From the NCBI GenBank assembly GCA_947629595.1, contig CANREI010000004.1:1-33272 (forward strand): a stretch of DNA of 33,272 nucleotides, in the 5' to 3' direction. This DNA is from an uncultured Alphaproteobacteria bacterium (GTDB lineage: Bacteria; Pseudomonadota; Alphaproteobacteria; CAAHEQ01; UBA3637). Below the pieces are notes generated by a model. The model saw nothing but the letters and a program-made list of their open reading frames with translations. It was not told the origin of the DNA and made no database searches. A program made the translations under genes and the position numbers. This document shows, one piece after another, positions 22,873 to 33,272 of this stretch. Every line of letters starts with the position of its first letter. Position 1 is the stretch's first letter.

Positions 22873-22942
22873 TTTTCCCTCTATCGGCGGGTGGGACAGA
22901 CGGCTTTATGTCGTCTGTCGCTATGGGCCGATAGGGGGAAAA
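22873..22942 (-). repeat. Nested hairpin element E1 (inverted copy)
   Basis: Outer arms 22873-22888 and 22927-22942 pair over 16 positions with one wobble; an inner hairpin pairs 22895-22904 with 22910-22919 around a TTTAT loop. Read on the minus strand the unpaired bulges are CCATAGC and CCACCC. In that orientation the 25-nt inner hairpin is identical to that of element E4 upstream of the same gene. Confidence 0.85.
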
Positions 22943-23059: not shown

Positions 23060-24637
23060 TCACTCACATAAGGCATAGTCGAAGCTGCCGTTGCCGCGAC
23101 TGATGTAGTCGAGGTAACCGTTATAGAGGTAGACGCGGTACGCGAAGCAGGAAGAATCATTACTTCCATATGGATCGCTCAACCATAAATACTGGCTCGG
23201 ACGACTGTCTTCCTTCCCGTTATACGCCTTGCTTAATTCCTTCACTCCACTACTTACATCATCACTCGTGCTAGACTTATTACACGCCATCTCTGACCCC
23301 TCTGCATGGCAATATCCATATATACACTCTCCTCCGCTATATTGAATTTTATGCCTACATTGTAATTCAGAAATTGTCACCATGTGTTTATTACCCGGCA
23401 ACGCCTCGCAGAACCGCTTCGCACTCCACCAGGTCATAACCTTTGTTGATATAATGTATTTACTGCTTATATCTCCTGATTTGTTAATATCACTTTCTGC
23501 CTTCCTGCACTCACTCTTATAAGTGTCACTCCCCTCACCAAAGCCTTTGCTCTTATCAAATTCACTTGTGCAACTATATCCCCGATACAAATAGCAATAC
23601 TCTCCCTCTTTGCAATCAGCATTACTCTCGCATTCGCCGATTTTGCAGCGTTGTTTTTCTTCATCCCAATCGGCACATTGGTTGCATGTACCATAATTAG
23701 CGTAATAACCTGTATCGCACCAATAATGCTTCCCGTCTCCTTTTTTATCACAATCACTGTTCGTTCTGCATTCAACACATTGATTACTATACAAAACCGG
23801 CTTATCTTCCGGACATGTGGCAACACATTCACTGCCGTTCCAGTTTGGTGTATCCGGATAAACATTTTTGCAAGTATCACACTTACCCTCGGCGTTACAA
23901 ATCGGATAACTTGAACTGGTGCAATGGCTGTTATCACCGCATGCCGCACACTCTTCTATTTCTTTATTCCAATGCTGACTTGATGAGCATTTGCATTGCC
24001 TTGTCGCTTCATCCCACGGCGCGTCTTCCGGGCAGTTTTTACACGCACCGTCTGCGCTGCAATACCCTTCACACGTTGCCTCATCGCATTCTTTTCCGCC
24101 GCCCGAAACGCCCAAATCTTTGGTCGAAAAGGCTACCATTACTTCATTTTCTTCATTGTCACAAGGGATTTCCGCCGTCTCATAATCTTTACCGTTAATT
24201 TCTAATACGGCCGTATCATCCATGCCGTCTAATAAGGTTGCCAAAGGTTTACACACCCCGGCCGGTATGCCTGATAATGCAAATGAATAGCCCGTTTCTG
24301 TTTCGCCCGGCGTTTCTGTTTCTATATCTTCAAATTCAACCGCAACGCCATAATTTGCATTAAATTTTAAGTGTTTTTCATCATCGTACGGCGAGCCGAG
24401 CAATAATTCTTCCGCCCCTTGCGCAACTTTTATTTTTGCATCGGTGCGCATGAGGTTAATTTCATTCGCGATTTGATTCGCCTGATACCGATTCATGGCC
24501 ATTCTATATCCTGAAATGCCGCCGATTGAAATAACGCCGATAACGGCCAGAACGCCCAGCATTTCAACCATACTACGGCCTTGTTGCGCTTGATTTTCAA
24601 TTTGTTTTAATTGTTTTTTCCTTGTTTTATTGCTCAT
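23060..24637 (-). CDS. Pilin-like Cys-rich protein with C-type-lectin-like C-terminus (left adhesin)
   Basis: A 525-residue protein. A 20-residue basic leader ends in Gly before 'RSMVEMLGVLAVIGVISIGG', a type IV prepilin-like cleavage site with Glu at +5 but Arg, not Phe, at +1. A pilin-like helix and small domain follow to ~residue 180, with 'GVCKPLATLLDGMD' shared with its paralogue. Residues ~185-375 contain many Cys in EGF-like or knottin-like modules ('CPEDAPWDEATRQC', 'CGDNSHCTSSSYPIC'). The end (~395-525) resembles a C-type lectin fold: 'MTWWSAKRFCEALPG', 'YLWLSD', 'CFAYRVYLYNG', 'YALCE'. Likely exported and surface exposed as a pseudopilin-tipped adhesin; this is inference. 'AAAGGAAGCG' precedes the ATG. 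No pilus machinery is in the window. Confidence 0.75.
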   Translation of the reverse strand: MSNKTRKKQLKQIENQAQQGRSMVEMLGVLAVIGVISIGGISGYRMAMNRYQANQIANEINLMRTDAKIKVAQGAEELLLGSPYDDEKHLKFNANYGVAVEFEDIETETPGETETGYSFALSGIPAGVCKPLATLLDGMDDTAVLEINGKDYETAEIPCDNEENEVMVAFSTKDLGVSGGGKECDEATCEGYCSADGACKNCPEDAPWDEATRQCKCSSSQHWNKEIEECAACGDNSHCTSSSYPICNAEGKCDTCKNVYPDTPNWNGSECVATCPEDKPVLYSNQCVECRTNSDCDKKGDGKHYWCDTGYYANYGTCNQCADWDEEKQRCKIGECESNADCKEGEYCYLYRGYSCTSEFDKSKGFGEGSDTYKSECRKAESDINKSGDISSKYIISTKVMTWWSAKRFCEALPGNKHMVTISELQCRHKIQYSGGECIYGYCHAEGSEMACNKSSTSDDVSSGVKELSKAYNGKEDSRPSQYLWLSDPYGSNDSSCFAYRVYLYNGYLDYISRGNGSFDYALCE

Positions 24638-24833
24638 TTTTCGCTTCCTTTCAATGCAAATAGCATAAAATAAACGTACCTTTAATGCAACGCTGATTCC
24701 GGGGTAAAATTACCCTTAAATTTTGGTAAAATGGCCTTTTTATAAACCATTGATATTGCATTAAAAATACCTCAAAATAAATTTTTTTTGAAAAAATCAA
24801 AAAAAAGTGTTGCAAAAATCGTACGTTTTTTTG
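24638..24833 (-). repeat. Left arm of ~200-bp inverted repeat (adhesin leader)
   Basis: Read on the minus strand this matches 25892-26090 on the plus strand over nearly its whole length, ending at the adhesin start codons. By eye I count about 24 differences in about 200 positions. It contains 'CGTACG' sites, a T-tract/A-tract hairpin, a small ORF and the 'GGGTAATTTTACCC' hairpin. Confidence 0.9.
24651..24761 (-). CDS. Short leader ORF upstream of the left adhesin
   Basis: A 36-residue ORF (MQYQ...CYLH) starts 8 nt after GAGGT and stops 13 nt before the adhesin ATG. The right leader has a homologous ORF with the pattern 'MQYQxxIKxxFYQxLRVILP' and 'RCIKxTFILCY'. Most DNA differences change residues, so the conserved thing may be the nucleic acid rather than the peptide. 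It could be a translated leader that controls adhesin expression; not established. Confidence 0.35.
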   Translation of the reverse strand: MQYQWFIKRPFYQNLRVILPRNQRCIKGTFILCYLH

Positions 24834-24843
24834 ATGCATATTC

Positions 24844-24870
24844 AAAAAAAATCGCCTTGATGAGAGGCGA
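24844..24870 (-). terminator. Intrinsic terminator of the predicted ncRNA
   Basis: Minus-strand TCGCCT / AGGCGA stem with a 7-nt loop followed by eight T residues. It lies 83 nt before the left leader ORF and so would isolate the upstream ncRNA from the adhesin transcript. Confidence 0.85.
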
Positions 24871-25050
24871 CCGGAAGTTGGAAACTACTCAAAGGAAATA
24901 GTGCGATATATTGACCAAAAGGCTATTTTATCGCCTTCCGGTCGTTCGATTACTTGCCTTGTTTATAAAAAAACAAGGCTAAAATCTATCCTTTTTCAAG
25001 GATACCTTTGAAAGAGGTTTCCATACCTCGGGGCACACATCACTTGCCTT
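24844..25050 (-). ncRNA. Predicted ~207-nt structured ncRNA
   Basis: The segment is framed by a consensus promoter and an intrinsic terminator on the minus strand and has no credible ORF. Internal stems, minus strand, in order: GAGGT/ACCTC; TATCCTT-GAAA-AAGGATA; GCCTTGTTT/AAACAAGGC; and a perfect 10-bp stem CGACCGGAAG (24868-24877) with CTTCCGGTCG (24935-24944) enclosing ~57 nt. The last stem shares three bases with the terminator stem. An 'AAGGCAAGTRAT' motif occurs twice. I could not match it to 6S, tmRNA, RNase P or SRP RNA. Confidence 0.7.
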
Positions 25051-25056
25051 GCTTCC

Positions 25057-25085
25057 AGAATAAAAGCTTTTCATACCAATGTCAA
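25057..25085 (-). promoter_or_regulatory. Promoter of the predicted ncRNA
   Basis: Minus-strand TTGACA (25085-25080), 17-nt spacer, TATTCT (25062-25057). Predicted start near 25050. Confidence 0.8.
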
Positions 25086-25108: not shown

Positions 25109-25177
25109 TTTTTCCTCTATCGGCCCATAGCGGAGCGGCACAGTTGCGCCGCTCCACATCCGCCGATAGAGGGGAAA
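25109..25177 (+). repeat. Nested hairpin element E2
   Basis: Outer arms TTTCCTCTATCGGC (25111-25124) and GCCGATAGAGGGGAAA (25162-25177); inner stem GGAGCGGC/GCCGCTCC; bulges CCATAGC and ACATCC. It is followed by a tail 'CGGCGACAACGTTAAAA' shared with E7 and, more weakly, E1. Confidence 0.85.
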
Positions 25178-25418: not shown

Positions 25419-25487
25419 TTTCCTCCTATCGGCACATAGCGACAGACGACATAAAGCCGTCTGTCACACCCGCCGATAGAGGGGAAA
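25419..25487 (+). repeat. Nested hairpin element E4
   Basis: Outer arms 25419-25433 and 25472-25487; inner stem GACAGACGAC/GCCGTCTGTC with loop ATAAA; bulges ACATAGC and ACACCC. Its 25-nt inner hairpin equals that of the inverted element E1. A right-half-only remnant ('GCCGAAAAGAAAAGAGAGTG') lies between E3 and E4 near 25331. Confidence 0.85.
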
Positions 25488-25562
25488 AAGAGAGTGCCAT
25501 ATACAGATAACAGAGTGATACATTAAAAAAATAACGCCGCTTTCGGTTCTCTACCTTTTCTT

Positions 25563-25625
25563 TCTCATTCTCGGCACATAGCGGAACGTCACAATTGCGA
25601 CGTTCCACATCCGCCGAGAATGAGA
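25563..25625 (+). repeat. Nested hairpin element E5
   Basis: Outer arms TCTCATTCTCGGC (25563-25575) and GCCGAGAATGAGA (25613-25625) are perfectly complementary but differ in sequence from E2/E4, that is, with compensatory changes. Inner stem GGAACGTC/GACGTTCC; bulges ACATAGC and ACATCC. Confidence 0.85.
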
Positions 25626-25653
25626 GACAGAGACACAATTTTCTTTTCCTGCC

Positions 25654-25774: not shown

Positions 25775-25843
25775 TTTCCCCCTGTCGGCCCATAGCGATG
25801 CGCCACTTTCTGCGGCGCAACCCACACGCCGATAGAAGGAAAA
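25775..25843 (+). repeat. Nested hairpin element E7
   Basis: Outer arms TTTCCCCCTGTCGGC (25775-25789) and GCCGATAGAAGGAAAA (25828-25843), with one wobble and two mismatches; inner stem TGCGCC/GGCGCA; left bulge CCATAGC. The tail 'CAGTGACAACGCTAAAA' parallels E2. Confidence 0.8.
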
Positions 25844-25891
25844 TCCAGTGACAACGCTAAAAACCGACATATTTTCCCAATTACCTGTCCT

Positions 25892-26090
25892 CAAAAAAAC
25901 GTACGTTTTTTGCAACACTTTTTTTTGATTTTTTCAAAAAAATTTTATTTGGAGGTAAATTTAATGCAATATCAAAGGGTTATAAAAAGCCTGTTTTATC
26001 AATTTTTGAGGGTAATTTTACCCCCGAATCTGCGTTGCATTAAACGTACGTTTATTTTATGCTATTCGTATACTGAAAGGGAGTCGGAAA
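25892..26090 (+). repeat. Right arm of ~200-bp inverted repeat (adhesin leader)
   Basis: Counterpart of 24638-24833 in opposite orientation, ending at the ATG of the right adhesin. The conserved hairpin GGGTAA/TTACCC is at 26010-26023. No clear -35/-10 pair is visible inside either arm, so the adhesin promoter is undetermined. Confidence 0.9.
25894..25911 (+). promoter_or_regulatory. Palindrome AAAAAACGTACGTTTTTT upstream of right adhesin
   Basis: A perfect 18-bp palindrome. A second palindrome, TAAACGTACGTTTA (26041-26054), is centred 145 bp downstream. The left leader has one-mismatch versions at ~24814-24832 and 24671-24684. Paired sites with a common core suggest binding of a dimeric regulator, possibly with looping; not proven. 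Confidence 0.45.
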
Positions 26091-26119
26091 ATGACAAGAA
26101 AATTAAAAAAACAAATTGA
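25964..26119 (+). CDS. Short leader ORF overlapping the right adhesin start
   Basis: The ATG follows GGAGG by 8 nt and encodes 'MQYQRVIKSLFYQFLRVILP...' for 51 residues, running past the adhesin ATG (26091) in another frame, whereas the left version stops before its gene. The first ~36 residues parallel the left leader ORF. If translated it could couple to or interfere with adhesin initiation. Coding status is uncertain. Confidence 0.35.
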   Translation: MQYQRVIKSLFYQFLRVILPPNLRCIKRTFILCYSYTERESENDKKIKKTN

Positions 26120-27611
26120 AACACGCTCTCAAAGCGGCCGGAGCATGATTGAAATGCTGGGGGTGCTGGCGATTATTGCCGTTCTGTCCATCGGTGGGAT
26201 TGTGGGCTATAAATTAGCTATGAACTACTATCAGGCCGATCAGATTGCGAATGAAATTAACTTAATGCGTAACGATTTAAAGGTTAAATATGCTCTGGGG
26301 AATGAAGAATTGTTATTGGGGGACCCTTATGATGATACACCCGCAGATGAAAATTACAGCGGGCATTTATCAACACAATATGATCGTTATCCCGTTGATT
26401 ATGATTGCATCCGCAAAGACAAAGCAGAATTTTATAATTGTCGCGAAACAGATGCTTATTATATTAAAGTGGGAAATGTTTCGAAAGGCGTCTGTAAGCC
26501 CCTCGCAACGCTTCTTAATGGCATGGACGGTTTAATGTATATGGAAATCAATAAAGAAGTTTATAAAGAAAATGATTTATGCACGAGTGATGAAAATAAT
26601 GAAATTTATATTGAATTTGATGCGGAAGAAGTGAATGGAAACTATGATTCGAATCGTCCCGAAGGTTGGTGCACTGATGATGACGATTGTGACGCTTCAA
26701 GACCTATTTGTGATATAGAAAATAATGAATGCGTGGAATGTATAGATTATACGGATTGCACGGATTCCACCAAACCCCGTTGTAATGTTGAACAAGGTAA
26801 TTGCGAATCGTGTCCGCCGGAAACGCCTAAATGGAACGGCGAAGAGTGTGTGGAATGTTTATCGTCTGCCGATTGCACGAATCTCGATAAACCAAATTGT
26901 AACGCAGGGACAAACACATGTGAAGCATGCCCGCCGGAAAAACCATTATGGAACGGCTCAAATTGTGAAGCTTGCCCTGAAGATGAACCGTGGAACGGCG
27001 AATCTTGCGGATGCAGAAGTAATGATGATTGCGAAACGGATGAATATTGCTCTATGTTGTGGCGTACAGGTGATATATGTCAAATTGCCGAAACAGGAAA
27101 GTGTAAAAAATTAGGCCATTATCAGAAAGAACAGTTTGATAATGAAACCTACTATGTATCAGATGAAACAATGACATGGTGGAGTGCTCAAAATTACTGT
27201 CAAGCCCTTACGCGCACAACAGATTGCGGCGGTAACATGGTGAGTTGGAGCAAACTCAATTTGCAATGCGCCAATGAAATTGTGGTTCAAGATGGTTGTA
27301 AATGCAGTGATGAAAATTGTAATTTGGATCACCAAGTCAAACAATGTCAACGATTAAGTCTCGCCGAAGGTATCCATTTGTATTGCAAAAAAGATACTGC
27401 CGGAACAAGCGGTTCATCAAATATTCCGGATAAACTGAAAACATTACGAGAAACGTTTTTTAACAATGACTCCGAAAGTTTTGTTTGGCTTAATGACGGA
27501 AATAATCCTTGCTATGCGTGGGTTATCGGACCAAACGGAATTGTTACCGCTCGTCCGCGATATTACGGTAGAGATATCTTGGTGAGCGACGGCCATGCCT
27601 TTTGTTATTAA
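26091..27611 (+). CDS. Pilin-like Cys-rich protein with C-type-lectin-like C-terminus (right adhesin)
   Basis: A 506-residue paralogue of the left adhesin. A 16-residue basic leader ends in Gly before 'RSMIEMLGVLAIIAVLSIGG', again with Glu at +5 and Arg at +1. The pilin-like part shares 'ADQIANEINLMRNDLKVK', 'NEELLLGDPYDD' and 'GVCKPLATLLNGMD'. Cys-rich modules (~190-325) recur as 'CPPETPKWNGEECVEC' and 'CPPEKPLWNGSNCEAC'. The C-terminus (~355-506) has 'MTWWSAQNYCQAL', 'FVWLND', 'CYAWVIGPNGIV' and ends 'HAFCY'. The N-terminal third is similar to the left protein; the modules and lectin-like part are strongly diverged, as expected for a variable binding tip. 'AAAGGGAGTCGG' is the ribosome binding site. 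Surface adhesion is inferred from architecture only. Confidence 0.75.
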   Translation: MTRKLKKQIETRSQSGRSMIEMLGVLAIIAVLSIGGIVGYKLAMNYYQADQIANEINLMRNDLKVKYALGNEELLLGDPYDDTPADENYSGHLSTQYDRYPVDYDCIRKDKAEFYNCRETDAYYIKVGNVSKGVCKPLATLLNGMDGLMYMEINKEVYKENDLCTSDENNEIYIEFDAEEVNGNYDSNRPEGWCTDDDDCDASRPICDIENNECVECIDYTDCTDSTKPRCNVEQGNCESCPPETPKWNGEECVECLSSADCTNLDKPNCNAGTNTCEACPPEKPLWNGSNCEACPEDEPWNGESCGCRSNDDCETDEYCSMLWRTGDICQIAETGKCKKLGHYQKEQFDNETYYVSDETMTWWSAQNYCQALTRTTDCGGNMVSWSKLNLQCANEIVVQDGCKCSDENCNLDHQVKQCQRLSLAEGIHLYCKKDTAGTSGSSNIPDKLKTLRETFFNNDSESFVWLNDGNNPCYAWVIGPNGIVTARPRYYGRDILVSDGHAFCY

Positions 27612-32093: not shown

Positions 32094-33272
32094 ATGGATG
32101 AGCGCACACCGCTTGATCAGGATAATCAGCTTTTATATGCGTTTTTAAATCGCAAAAAAACGCGCGATAATCAAGCTGCCGTGACGGCTCAACGGTTAGT
32201 CAATCTGTTTCGCCAACTTTCTTCTTTCAGCCCCGAATTTGTCGCACAATATAATCAAATGCTTTTAGGCGCCAATGATGAAATTCAAATGATGTTACAA
32301 GATATTGTCGGCGGGCCGACCGTTCGGCAATATTTAACCTATCTAAAACAGGCATACGGGCAAGCGGTTAACGAGCAGGAGGGCAGTGAAAAAACGTCTG
32401 TTTCATCCGTGAATACGGGCTATTTACCCTCTGCCGATGATGATACACCGTTTTATAAAACGGCATTGGGTTTTGGCGAAGCGGCTCCCAAACCATCCAG
32501 CGAACCGATTGTTACCATTCAAGATTTTACCAAATGGCAAAAATCACAAGAGGCCTTGATCAGAAAAGCCATGATGGCTCAAAATAAGGCTATTTCAAAA
32601 CTGGCACTGGCTTTATCCGAAAAGAAAAACACTGTCGACAATCAACCGACACCGCCAATTCAATCGGCCTATCCGCAGTCGCCGTTTCATATGCCGCAAC
32701 CCTCAACTCCTTATGTGAATCAAGCCGTCGGAACTCATTTACAATCCGATTTAACGCAATTTGAAGAACCAAATCCGGTTATGCAAAACAGCTTCTCTTC
32801 TTCGGATAACGGCAATCAGCCTGTTTTATCGGAAAACACGGCTGCATCGGAAATATCCGAAACCACAGCACCGCTTGAAGAACCGACAGCATTTGAATCG
32901 TTTGAAGAGACCGCCGCGACAACAGATAACACGTTTAATCTTCCCGAAGAAAGCGTTGAAGCACCTGTTTCGTTTGAAGAAACCGCAACAACAGATAACA
33001 CGTTTAATCTTCCCGAAGAAACCGTTGAAGCACCTGTTTCGTTTGAAGAAACCGCAACAACAACAGATAACACGTTTGCCCTTCCCGAAGAAGCCGTTGA
33101 AGCACCTGTTTCGTTTGAAGAAACCGCCGCGACAACAGATAACACGTTTGCTCTTCCCGAAGAAGCCGTTGAAGCACCTGTTTCGTTTGAAGAAACCGCC
33201 GCAACAACAGATAACACGTTTGCCCTTCCCGAAGAAACCGTTGAAGCACCTGTTTCGTTTGAAGAACCCGCC
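32094..33272 (+). CDS. Uncharacterised protein with acidic 24-residue repeats (truncated by window edge)
   Basis: An open frame from the ATG at 32094 ('AAAGGAACAGAAA' upstream) to the window end, 393 codons without a stop; it is absent from the ORF track because it is unfinished. Residues ~1-110 look globular and helical ('LLYAFLNRKKTRDNQAA', 'LVNLFRQLSSFSPEFVAQY', 'TVRQYLTYLKQAYGQAV'). A second helix-rich part ('TIQDFTKWQKSQEALIRKAM') and a Pro/Gln/Ser linker follow, then acidic repeats 'TDNTFALPEEAVEAPVSFEE'. No signal peptide or membrane helix is seen. It follows the double-HTH regulator by 15 nt, suggesting joint expression. I do not recognise the family. Confidence 0.8.
   Translation, partial: MDERTPLDQDNQLLYAFLNRKKTRDNQAAVTAQRLVNLFRQLSSFSPEFVAQYNQMLLGANDEIQMMLQDIVGGPTVRQYLTYLKQAYGQAVNEQEGSEKTSVSSVNTGYLPSADDDTPFYKTALGFGEAAPKPSSEPIVTIQDFTKWQKSQEALIRKAMMAQNKAISKLALALSEKKNTVDNQPTPPIQSAYPQSPFHMPQPSTPYVNQAVGTHLQSDLTQFEEPNPVMQNSFSSSDNGNQPVLSENTAASEISETTAPLEEPTAFESFEETAATTDNTFNLPEESVEAPVSFEETATTDNTFNLPEETVEAPVSFEETATTTDNTFALPEEAVEAPVSFEETAATTDNTFALPEEAVEAPVSFEETAATTDNTFALPEETVEAPVSFEEPA
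32904..33260 (+). repeat. Five tandem 69/72-bp coding repeats
   Basis: Units begin at 32904, 32976, 33045, 33117 and 33189; four are 72 bp and the second is 69 bp. A sixth starts at the window edge. Units are near-identical, differing by a few substitutions and one codon in the ACA run, so the array is recently expanded and continues beyond the window. Confidence 0.92.

Follow-up and report, generated by a model that had tools for sequence, protein, structure and literature searches.

What kind of RNA lies between two divergent prepilin-like genes of an uncultured alphaproteobacterium, and on what might it act? The question arose from a 33,272-nt stretch of contig CANREI010000004.1 (assembly GCA_947629595.1), referred to below as the window. 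A preliminary description of this window had drawn on its minus strand a structured RNA of ~207 nt with a promoter and a terminator. We confirmed that the minus strand encodes a real structured small RNA (sRNA) with its own promoter and terminator, and we consider it likely that this element is an antisense RNA of the C4 type (RF02221 class) whose target has been lost or is distant. Its limits in the window are as follows.

25057..25085, minus strand: promoter TTGACA-17-TATTCT, with TTGACA at 25080-25085 (invariant in 23 copies) and TATTCT at 25057-25062.
24844..25050, minus strand: precursor RNA of ~207 nt, C4-type and sRNA-Xcc1-like as judged from its fold and its copies in the genome.
24844..24870, minus strand: intrinsic terminator TCGCCTCTCATCAAGGCGA-T8, with stem and loop invariant in all copies.

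The promoter and the T8 terminator were located on the minus strand where the preliminary description had placed them. The lone promoter match is not above chance in this AT-rich region, where 11 promoter-like matches were found versus 10.5 expected. The TTGACA box and the terminator stem-loop, loop included, are identical in 23 of 23 genome copies of the element, and it is this conservation, not the lone match, that gives the window promoter its weight. The minus-strand RNA has a folding energy of -74.6 kcal/mol (z = -6.9), and none of 200 shuffled sequences was as stable. The ORF check also agreed that the minus strand of the RNA region has no noteworthy open reading frame (ORF), and the CGACCGGAAG stem indeed shares bases with the terminator stem. 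The RNA is structured, as claimed, but its minimum free energy fold differs from the conserved fold, and the latter contains two long-range pseudoknots.

The window RNA is one of ~23 full copies in the genome and not a unique element. The copies have 76-93% identity, and nearly all of them are located directly upstream of a prepilin gene. It should be noted that the genome is a metagenome-assembled genome (MAG) of 1.34 Mb in 151 contigs, 77% complete and fragmented, with some RNA copies at contig ends. BLAST gave 24 matches to the RNA in this genome; two congeners had 31 and 10, and seven others had 0-1, short. In a parsed set of 52 units from three congeners, the prepilin gene lies directly downstream and in the same orientation in 45. 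The order of the locus is palindromic hairpins, RNA, a conserved region of ~180 nt and pilin.

The conserved fold of the window RNA is composed of the following parts.

25014..25029, minus strand: 5' hairpin GAGG..CCTC, with an invariant stem and a variable loop that holds a1 (GGAAA, 25018-25022).
25005..25011, minus strand: b1 (TCAAAGG), which pairs with b' in a loop, as judged from complementarity and covariation.
24956..25004, minus strand: two spacer hairpins (24987-25004 and 24956-24979), the second varying in sequence and length.
24869..24943, minus strand: C4-like domain, recognized by its RF02221 match and its topology, which is that of phage P1 C4; closing stem 24935-24943/24869-24877, arm 24903-24934, hairpin 24885-24901.
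24889..24895, minus strand: b' guide in the hairpin loop (CCTTTGA), from pairing with b1 and comparison to phage P1.
24880..24884, minus strand: a' guide in the linker (TTTCC), from pairing with a1 and comparison to phage P1.
24943..24944, minus strand: RNase P cleavage point at the 5' foot of the closing stem, predicted from the analogous P1 C4 and C4-like sRNAs of Acinetobacter baumannii (PMC5320573).

The window RNA contains a three-way junction with two inner hairpins, as in sRNA-Xcc1. Two long-range pairings are added to it: a1, in the loop of the first hairpin, pairs with a' in the linker that leads to the closing stem, and b1, the segment after the first hairpin, pairs with b' in the last inner hairpin's loop.

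Both a1/a' and b1/b' vary among the copies yet stay complementary. In 22 genome copies, 109 of 110 a1/a' pairs are formed. Full a1/a' pairing was found in 48 of the 52 units, compared with 21% for mismatched partners, and the b duplex has an energy of -6.9 kcal/mol versus -1.0 kcal/mol when partners are mismatched. For the 22 copies, none of 20,000 partner permutations reached the observed values; the copies share ancestry, so that the pairing counts are non-independent trials, and permutations do not correct for kinship. Stronger arguments are the contrast between helices and the slid control. The pseudoknots have a pair entropy of 1.1-1.3 bits with double changes at 9 of 12 pairs, whereas helices P1, P4 and P7 of the same units have 0-0.25 bits and no double changes. 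An independent covariation count gave 85 cells with changes on both sides; shuffles gave 29.5 +/- 4.2 and slid controls no more than 28.

The RNA had previously been left without a family, and only a housekeeping role had been doubted. It is not a housekeeping RNA, but it can be assigned: an Rfam covariance search gave a full-length match of its 3' half (24861-24943) to sRNA-Xcc1 (RF02221; model positions 1-87 of 87, 42.2 bits, E 4e-6), which is under the gathering score of the model (42 vs 53 bits). The sRNA-Xcc1 fold is joined here to a C4-type architecture. RF02221 is present in 18 of 38 relatives; of 399 genomes sampled from the phylum, 58 contain it, with scores of up to 83 bits. As described so far, sRNA-Xcc1 is a trans-acting Xanthomonas integron sRNA without a 5' a1/b1 part, whose mature length was determined as 88 nt by rapid amplification of cDNA ends. 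The Xanthomonas copies do carry a1/b1 upstream, as the window RNA does, and lack the further matching sites a2/b2 described below. By having no a2/b2 at the pilin start, the pilin copies resemble the chromosomal copies of Xanthomonas. The window type differs from the described sRNA in its ~23 copies tied to pilin genes as well as in its subthreshold score. With regard to a 5' end made by RNase P, GCCT follows the closing stem in all copies of this genome, and an RCC motif follows it in 100 of 135 other units.

The record of phage P1 annotates a1, b1, c4, a2 and b2. P1 C4 follows the plan of the window RNA: a hairpin loop presents b', the linker that leads to the closing stem presents a', and a1 and b1 precede both in matching order. 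An architectural feature of C4, complementarity of a'/b' to a1/b1 upstream in the same transcript, is present. The C4 RNAs of P1 and P7 (RF01695) also share with it the three-way junction with a closing stem and the upstream promoter. C4 is cut from its precursor by RNase P and blocks the icd/ant start site (PMC5320573). Unlike the C4 RNAs of P1 and P7, the window RNA is followed by a terminator, has no a2/b2 at the downstream start and has a pilin gene, not icd/ant, as its neighbour. The closest precedent is the Group 1 C4-like sRNAs of A. baumannii (21), with ~20 copies in a single genome, an extra 5' precursor region, a variable a' loop and probable processing by RNase P (PMC5320573). These are of the RF01695 type, however, their 5' region has a conserved loop without copy-specific a1/b1, and they are associated with no single gene family (PMC5320573). 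Weinberg et al. (2010; PMC2864571) also noted an upstream a1/b1 part as a separate motif, c4-a1b1, which they listed for the C4 of gamma-proteobacteria and phages and not for sRNA-Xcc1. Among open-access papers, only one names C4 antisense RNA beside sRNA-Xcc1, as a separate family (the original 2011 paper lies outside that scope).

The ~60 RF02221 loci that we inspected follow this a1/b1-b'/a' plan, with letters particular to each locus. A further set of sites, a2/b2, often surrounds the Shine-Dalgarno (SD) sequence of the next gene. In total, 152 non-redundant RF02221-type units were gathered by an exact core pattern; a1/b1 were present in 82% of them versus 6% in mismatched pairs, and a2/b2 in 62% versus 3.5%. 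In 83 units the end of a2 is 19 nt and that of b2 9 nt from the ATG that follows, the two sites being 4 nt apart. The genes that follow encode KilA-N, P22_AR, Bro-N, Rha, AntA, ORF6N and SymE proteins, and in phage units a2/b2 sit where an antirepressor or SymE gene starts. Annotated phages agree: in Smp131 the gene at this site is an anti-repressor gene, and in Vibrio phages KilA-N genes occupy it. Because phage units bear this third copy at start sites, the view that RF02221 works like C4 is well supported; the view that the window RNA is RF01695 is not.

It should also be mentioned that RF02221-type RNAs with a2/b2 at the start site were revealed upstream of SymE genes in three loci (L123 200-700, L171 450-900, L087 ~1501-1800). 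They resemble a SymE module under antisense control, distinct from the known SymE/SymR pair. In relatives of this bacterium (L035, L038, L039) a small lipoprotein family is located downstream of such RNAs, with a partial a2/b2 match in L039. Near one RF02221 unit, two matches to TwoAYGGAY RNA were found barely over the cut-off (L082 2372-2494 and 2791-2857).

We infer transcription, processing and antisense action in this bacterium along the following lines. The ~207-nt precursor carries a1 and b1 in its 5' part; its 3' part is the three-way junction that displays b' in the loop and a' in the linker, and the terminator ends the RNA. Within the precursor, a1/b1 are the cis partners of a'/b'. 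If the precursor is cut at the foot of the closing stem, RNase P being the most likely nuclease, a C4-like RNA of ~75-100 nt would be set free and would block RNAs bearing matching sites. In the phage relatives, matching a2/b2 surround the ribosome-binding site of the next gene; in the pilin-linked copies, from which a2/b2 are gone, the RNA may act in trans on another target and/or on a1/b1 of its own precursor. Since the a/b address differs among copies, each copy would act separately. Taken together, this suggests that a phage control device was multiplied and put to other use.

Besides the kinship of the copies and the score under the RF02221 threshold, several results weigh against a C4-type antisense RNA. 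The C4 model RF01695 has no match in the genome at E<=1 and none in 14 loci at E<=0.01. No a2/b2 was found at the pilin start site, where the RNA's own score is 9.4 versus 9.2 for mismatched addresses, and this site was rejected as the target for want of a locus-specific match. The flanking ~160 kb of the genome contain no surplus of matching sites over mispaired addresses. The window address itself occurs only twice elsewhere in the genome, not above control, once inside a pilin coding sequence and once in an intergenic region.

In the window the RNA is flanked as follows.

24654..24834, minus strand: conserved region of ~180 nt that precedes the minus-strand prepilin and forms one arm of an inverted repeat.
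25891..26071, plus strand: corresponding region before the plus-strand prepilin, which forms the second arm; a C4-like RNA is absent from that side.
23060..24637, minus strand: the prepilin-like gene next downstream from the RNA, 525 aa, GRSMVEMLGVLAVIG.
26091..27611, plus strand: divergent prepilin-like paralogue, 506 aa.

One alternative, which we regard as unlikely, is a cis-acting 5' leader in which the pairing state of a1/b1 with a'/b' sets termination and attenuates transcription of the pilin gene. The regular position of the pilin downstream of the RNA would fit, and so would the bases that the closing stem and the terminator stem have in common. In three loci (L018, L025, L027) the ~180-nt region is missing and the SD and ATG of the pilin come directly after the terminator T-run, with scant room for another promoter. 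The RNA had been called independent, which holds for the window copy but neither for these loci nor for the phage relatives, where the target gene has the RNA as its 5' leader. Most copies, that of the window included, have the conserved ~180 nt between terminator and pilin, and because this sequence also precedes a pilin without the RNA (25891-26071), the pilins probably have their own promoter. Moreover, attenuation alone does not need copy-specific pairings and leaves the C4 topology unexplained.

A library for phage immunity, in which each copy would silence the antirepressor of one incoming phage type, seems improbable to us. Prophage C4 of P1/P7 does silence the antirepressor of a superinfecting phage (PMC5320573). 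There are many related phage units that bear a2/b2 at antirepressor genes, and in a genome of the same bacterial family an RF02221 unit precedes a Rha-like gene with matching sites (L033); the addresses also vary between copies and species. However, the pilin-type RNA was on no viral contig searched, no phage target with a matching address was identified, such a search being unspecific for short addresses, and the tie to pilin genes would be unexplained.

We are equally doubtful of the RNA as a passenger copied along with recombining pilin cassettes, its pairing kept only for the fold. RNA, upstream region and pilin do move together. The addresses (a + b) of most copies differ from one another, and syntenic loci of sister species, flanked by the same genes, differ in most cases in their address and in their pilin, C-terminus included. 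For this reason cassettes are probably swapped between pilin loci. A few copies (L020, L333, L357, L358) have 5' and 3' halves with non-matching addresses, the result either of natural recombination or of a chimeric assembly. The number of distinct addresses per genome equals that from random combination of a and b alleles, as a passenger would have it; selection for unique addresses was accordingly rejected. What a passenger does not account for is near-perfect pairing in the fastest-changing helices while the core is nearly invariant.

Even with the C4-type antisense RNA as the preferred reading, it is quite unlikely that the host has made an address system out of a phage immunity RNA. Each pilin would then have its C4-type RNA with a two-part code (~9 a-alleles x ~20 b-alleles), by which single pilin loci or pilus-using phages would be silenced without cross-talk.

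Inversion of a DNA segment between the two pilin genes, the invertible segment of the preliminary description, is highly improbable in spite of the 181-nt inverted repeat (90% complementary), since each arm is the usual upstream region of one of two divergent paralogues, such regions recur in single orientation before many other pilin genes of the genome, and the MAG yielded neither an IS110-type (Piv-like) recombinase nor a reverse transcriptase. A diversity-generating retroelement or retron RNA and an IS110/bridge RNA were likewise rejected, with reverse transcriptase PF00078 and DEDD recombinase PF01548 absent from this 77% complete MAG.

The C4-type reading gives a mechanism for the widespread RF02221, so far treated as a trans-acting sRNA linked to virulence or vesicles. 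It would tie a phage-type regulator to a large, recombining pilin family and, within one small genome, provide dozens of naturally occurring orthogonal antisense pairs. If targets are found, the role of domesticated C4 RNAs in bacteria becomes directly testable.

The large prepilin family (L013-L032 and L327-L364) has similar N-termini (72% over 60 aa) and very different C-termini (23%), and some members contain many EGF-like repeats (L029). A lectin identity of the C-terminus of the window pilins received no support in Pfam, NCBIfam or PDB searches. Imperfect palindromes of ~65 nt (TCGGC-CATAGCG ... CACATCCGCCGA), without an Rfam match, are located at 25110-25177, 25419-25487, 25561-25630, 25775-25845 and 22873-22941, and are clustered around pilin loci genome-wide. 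Finally, an ORF of 24-aa tandem repeats (NVLSVVAAVSSNETGASTASSGRA) lies on the minus strand at the window edge (32816-33217).
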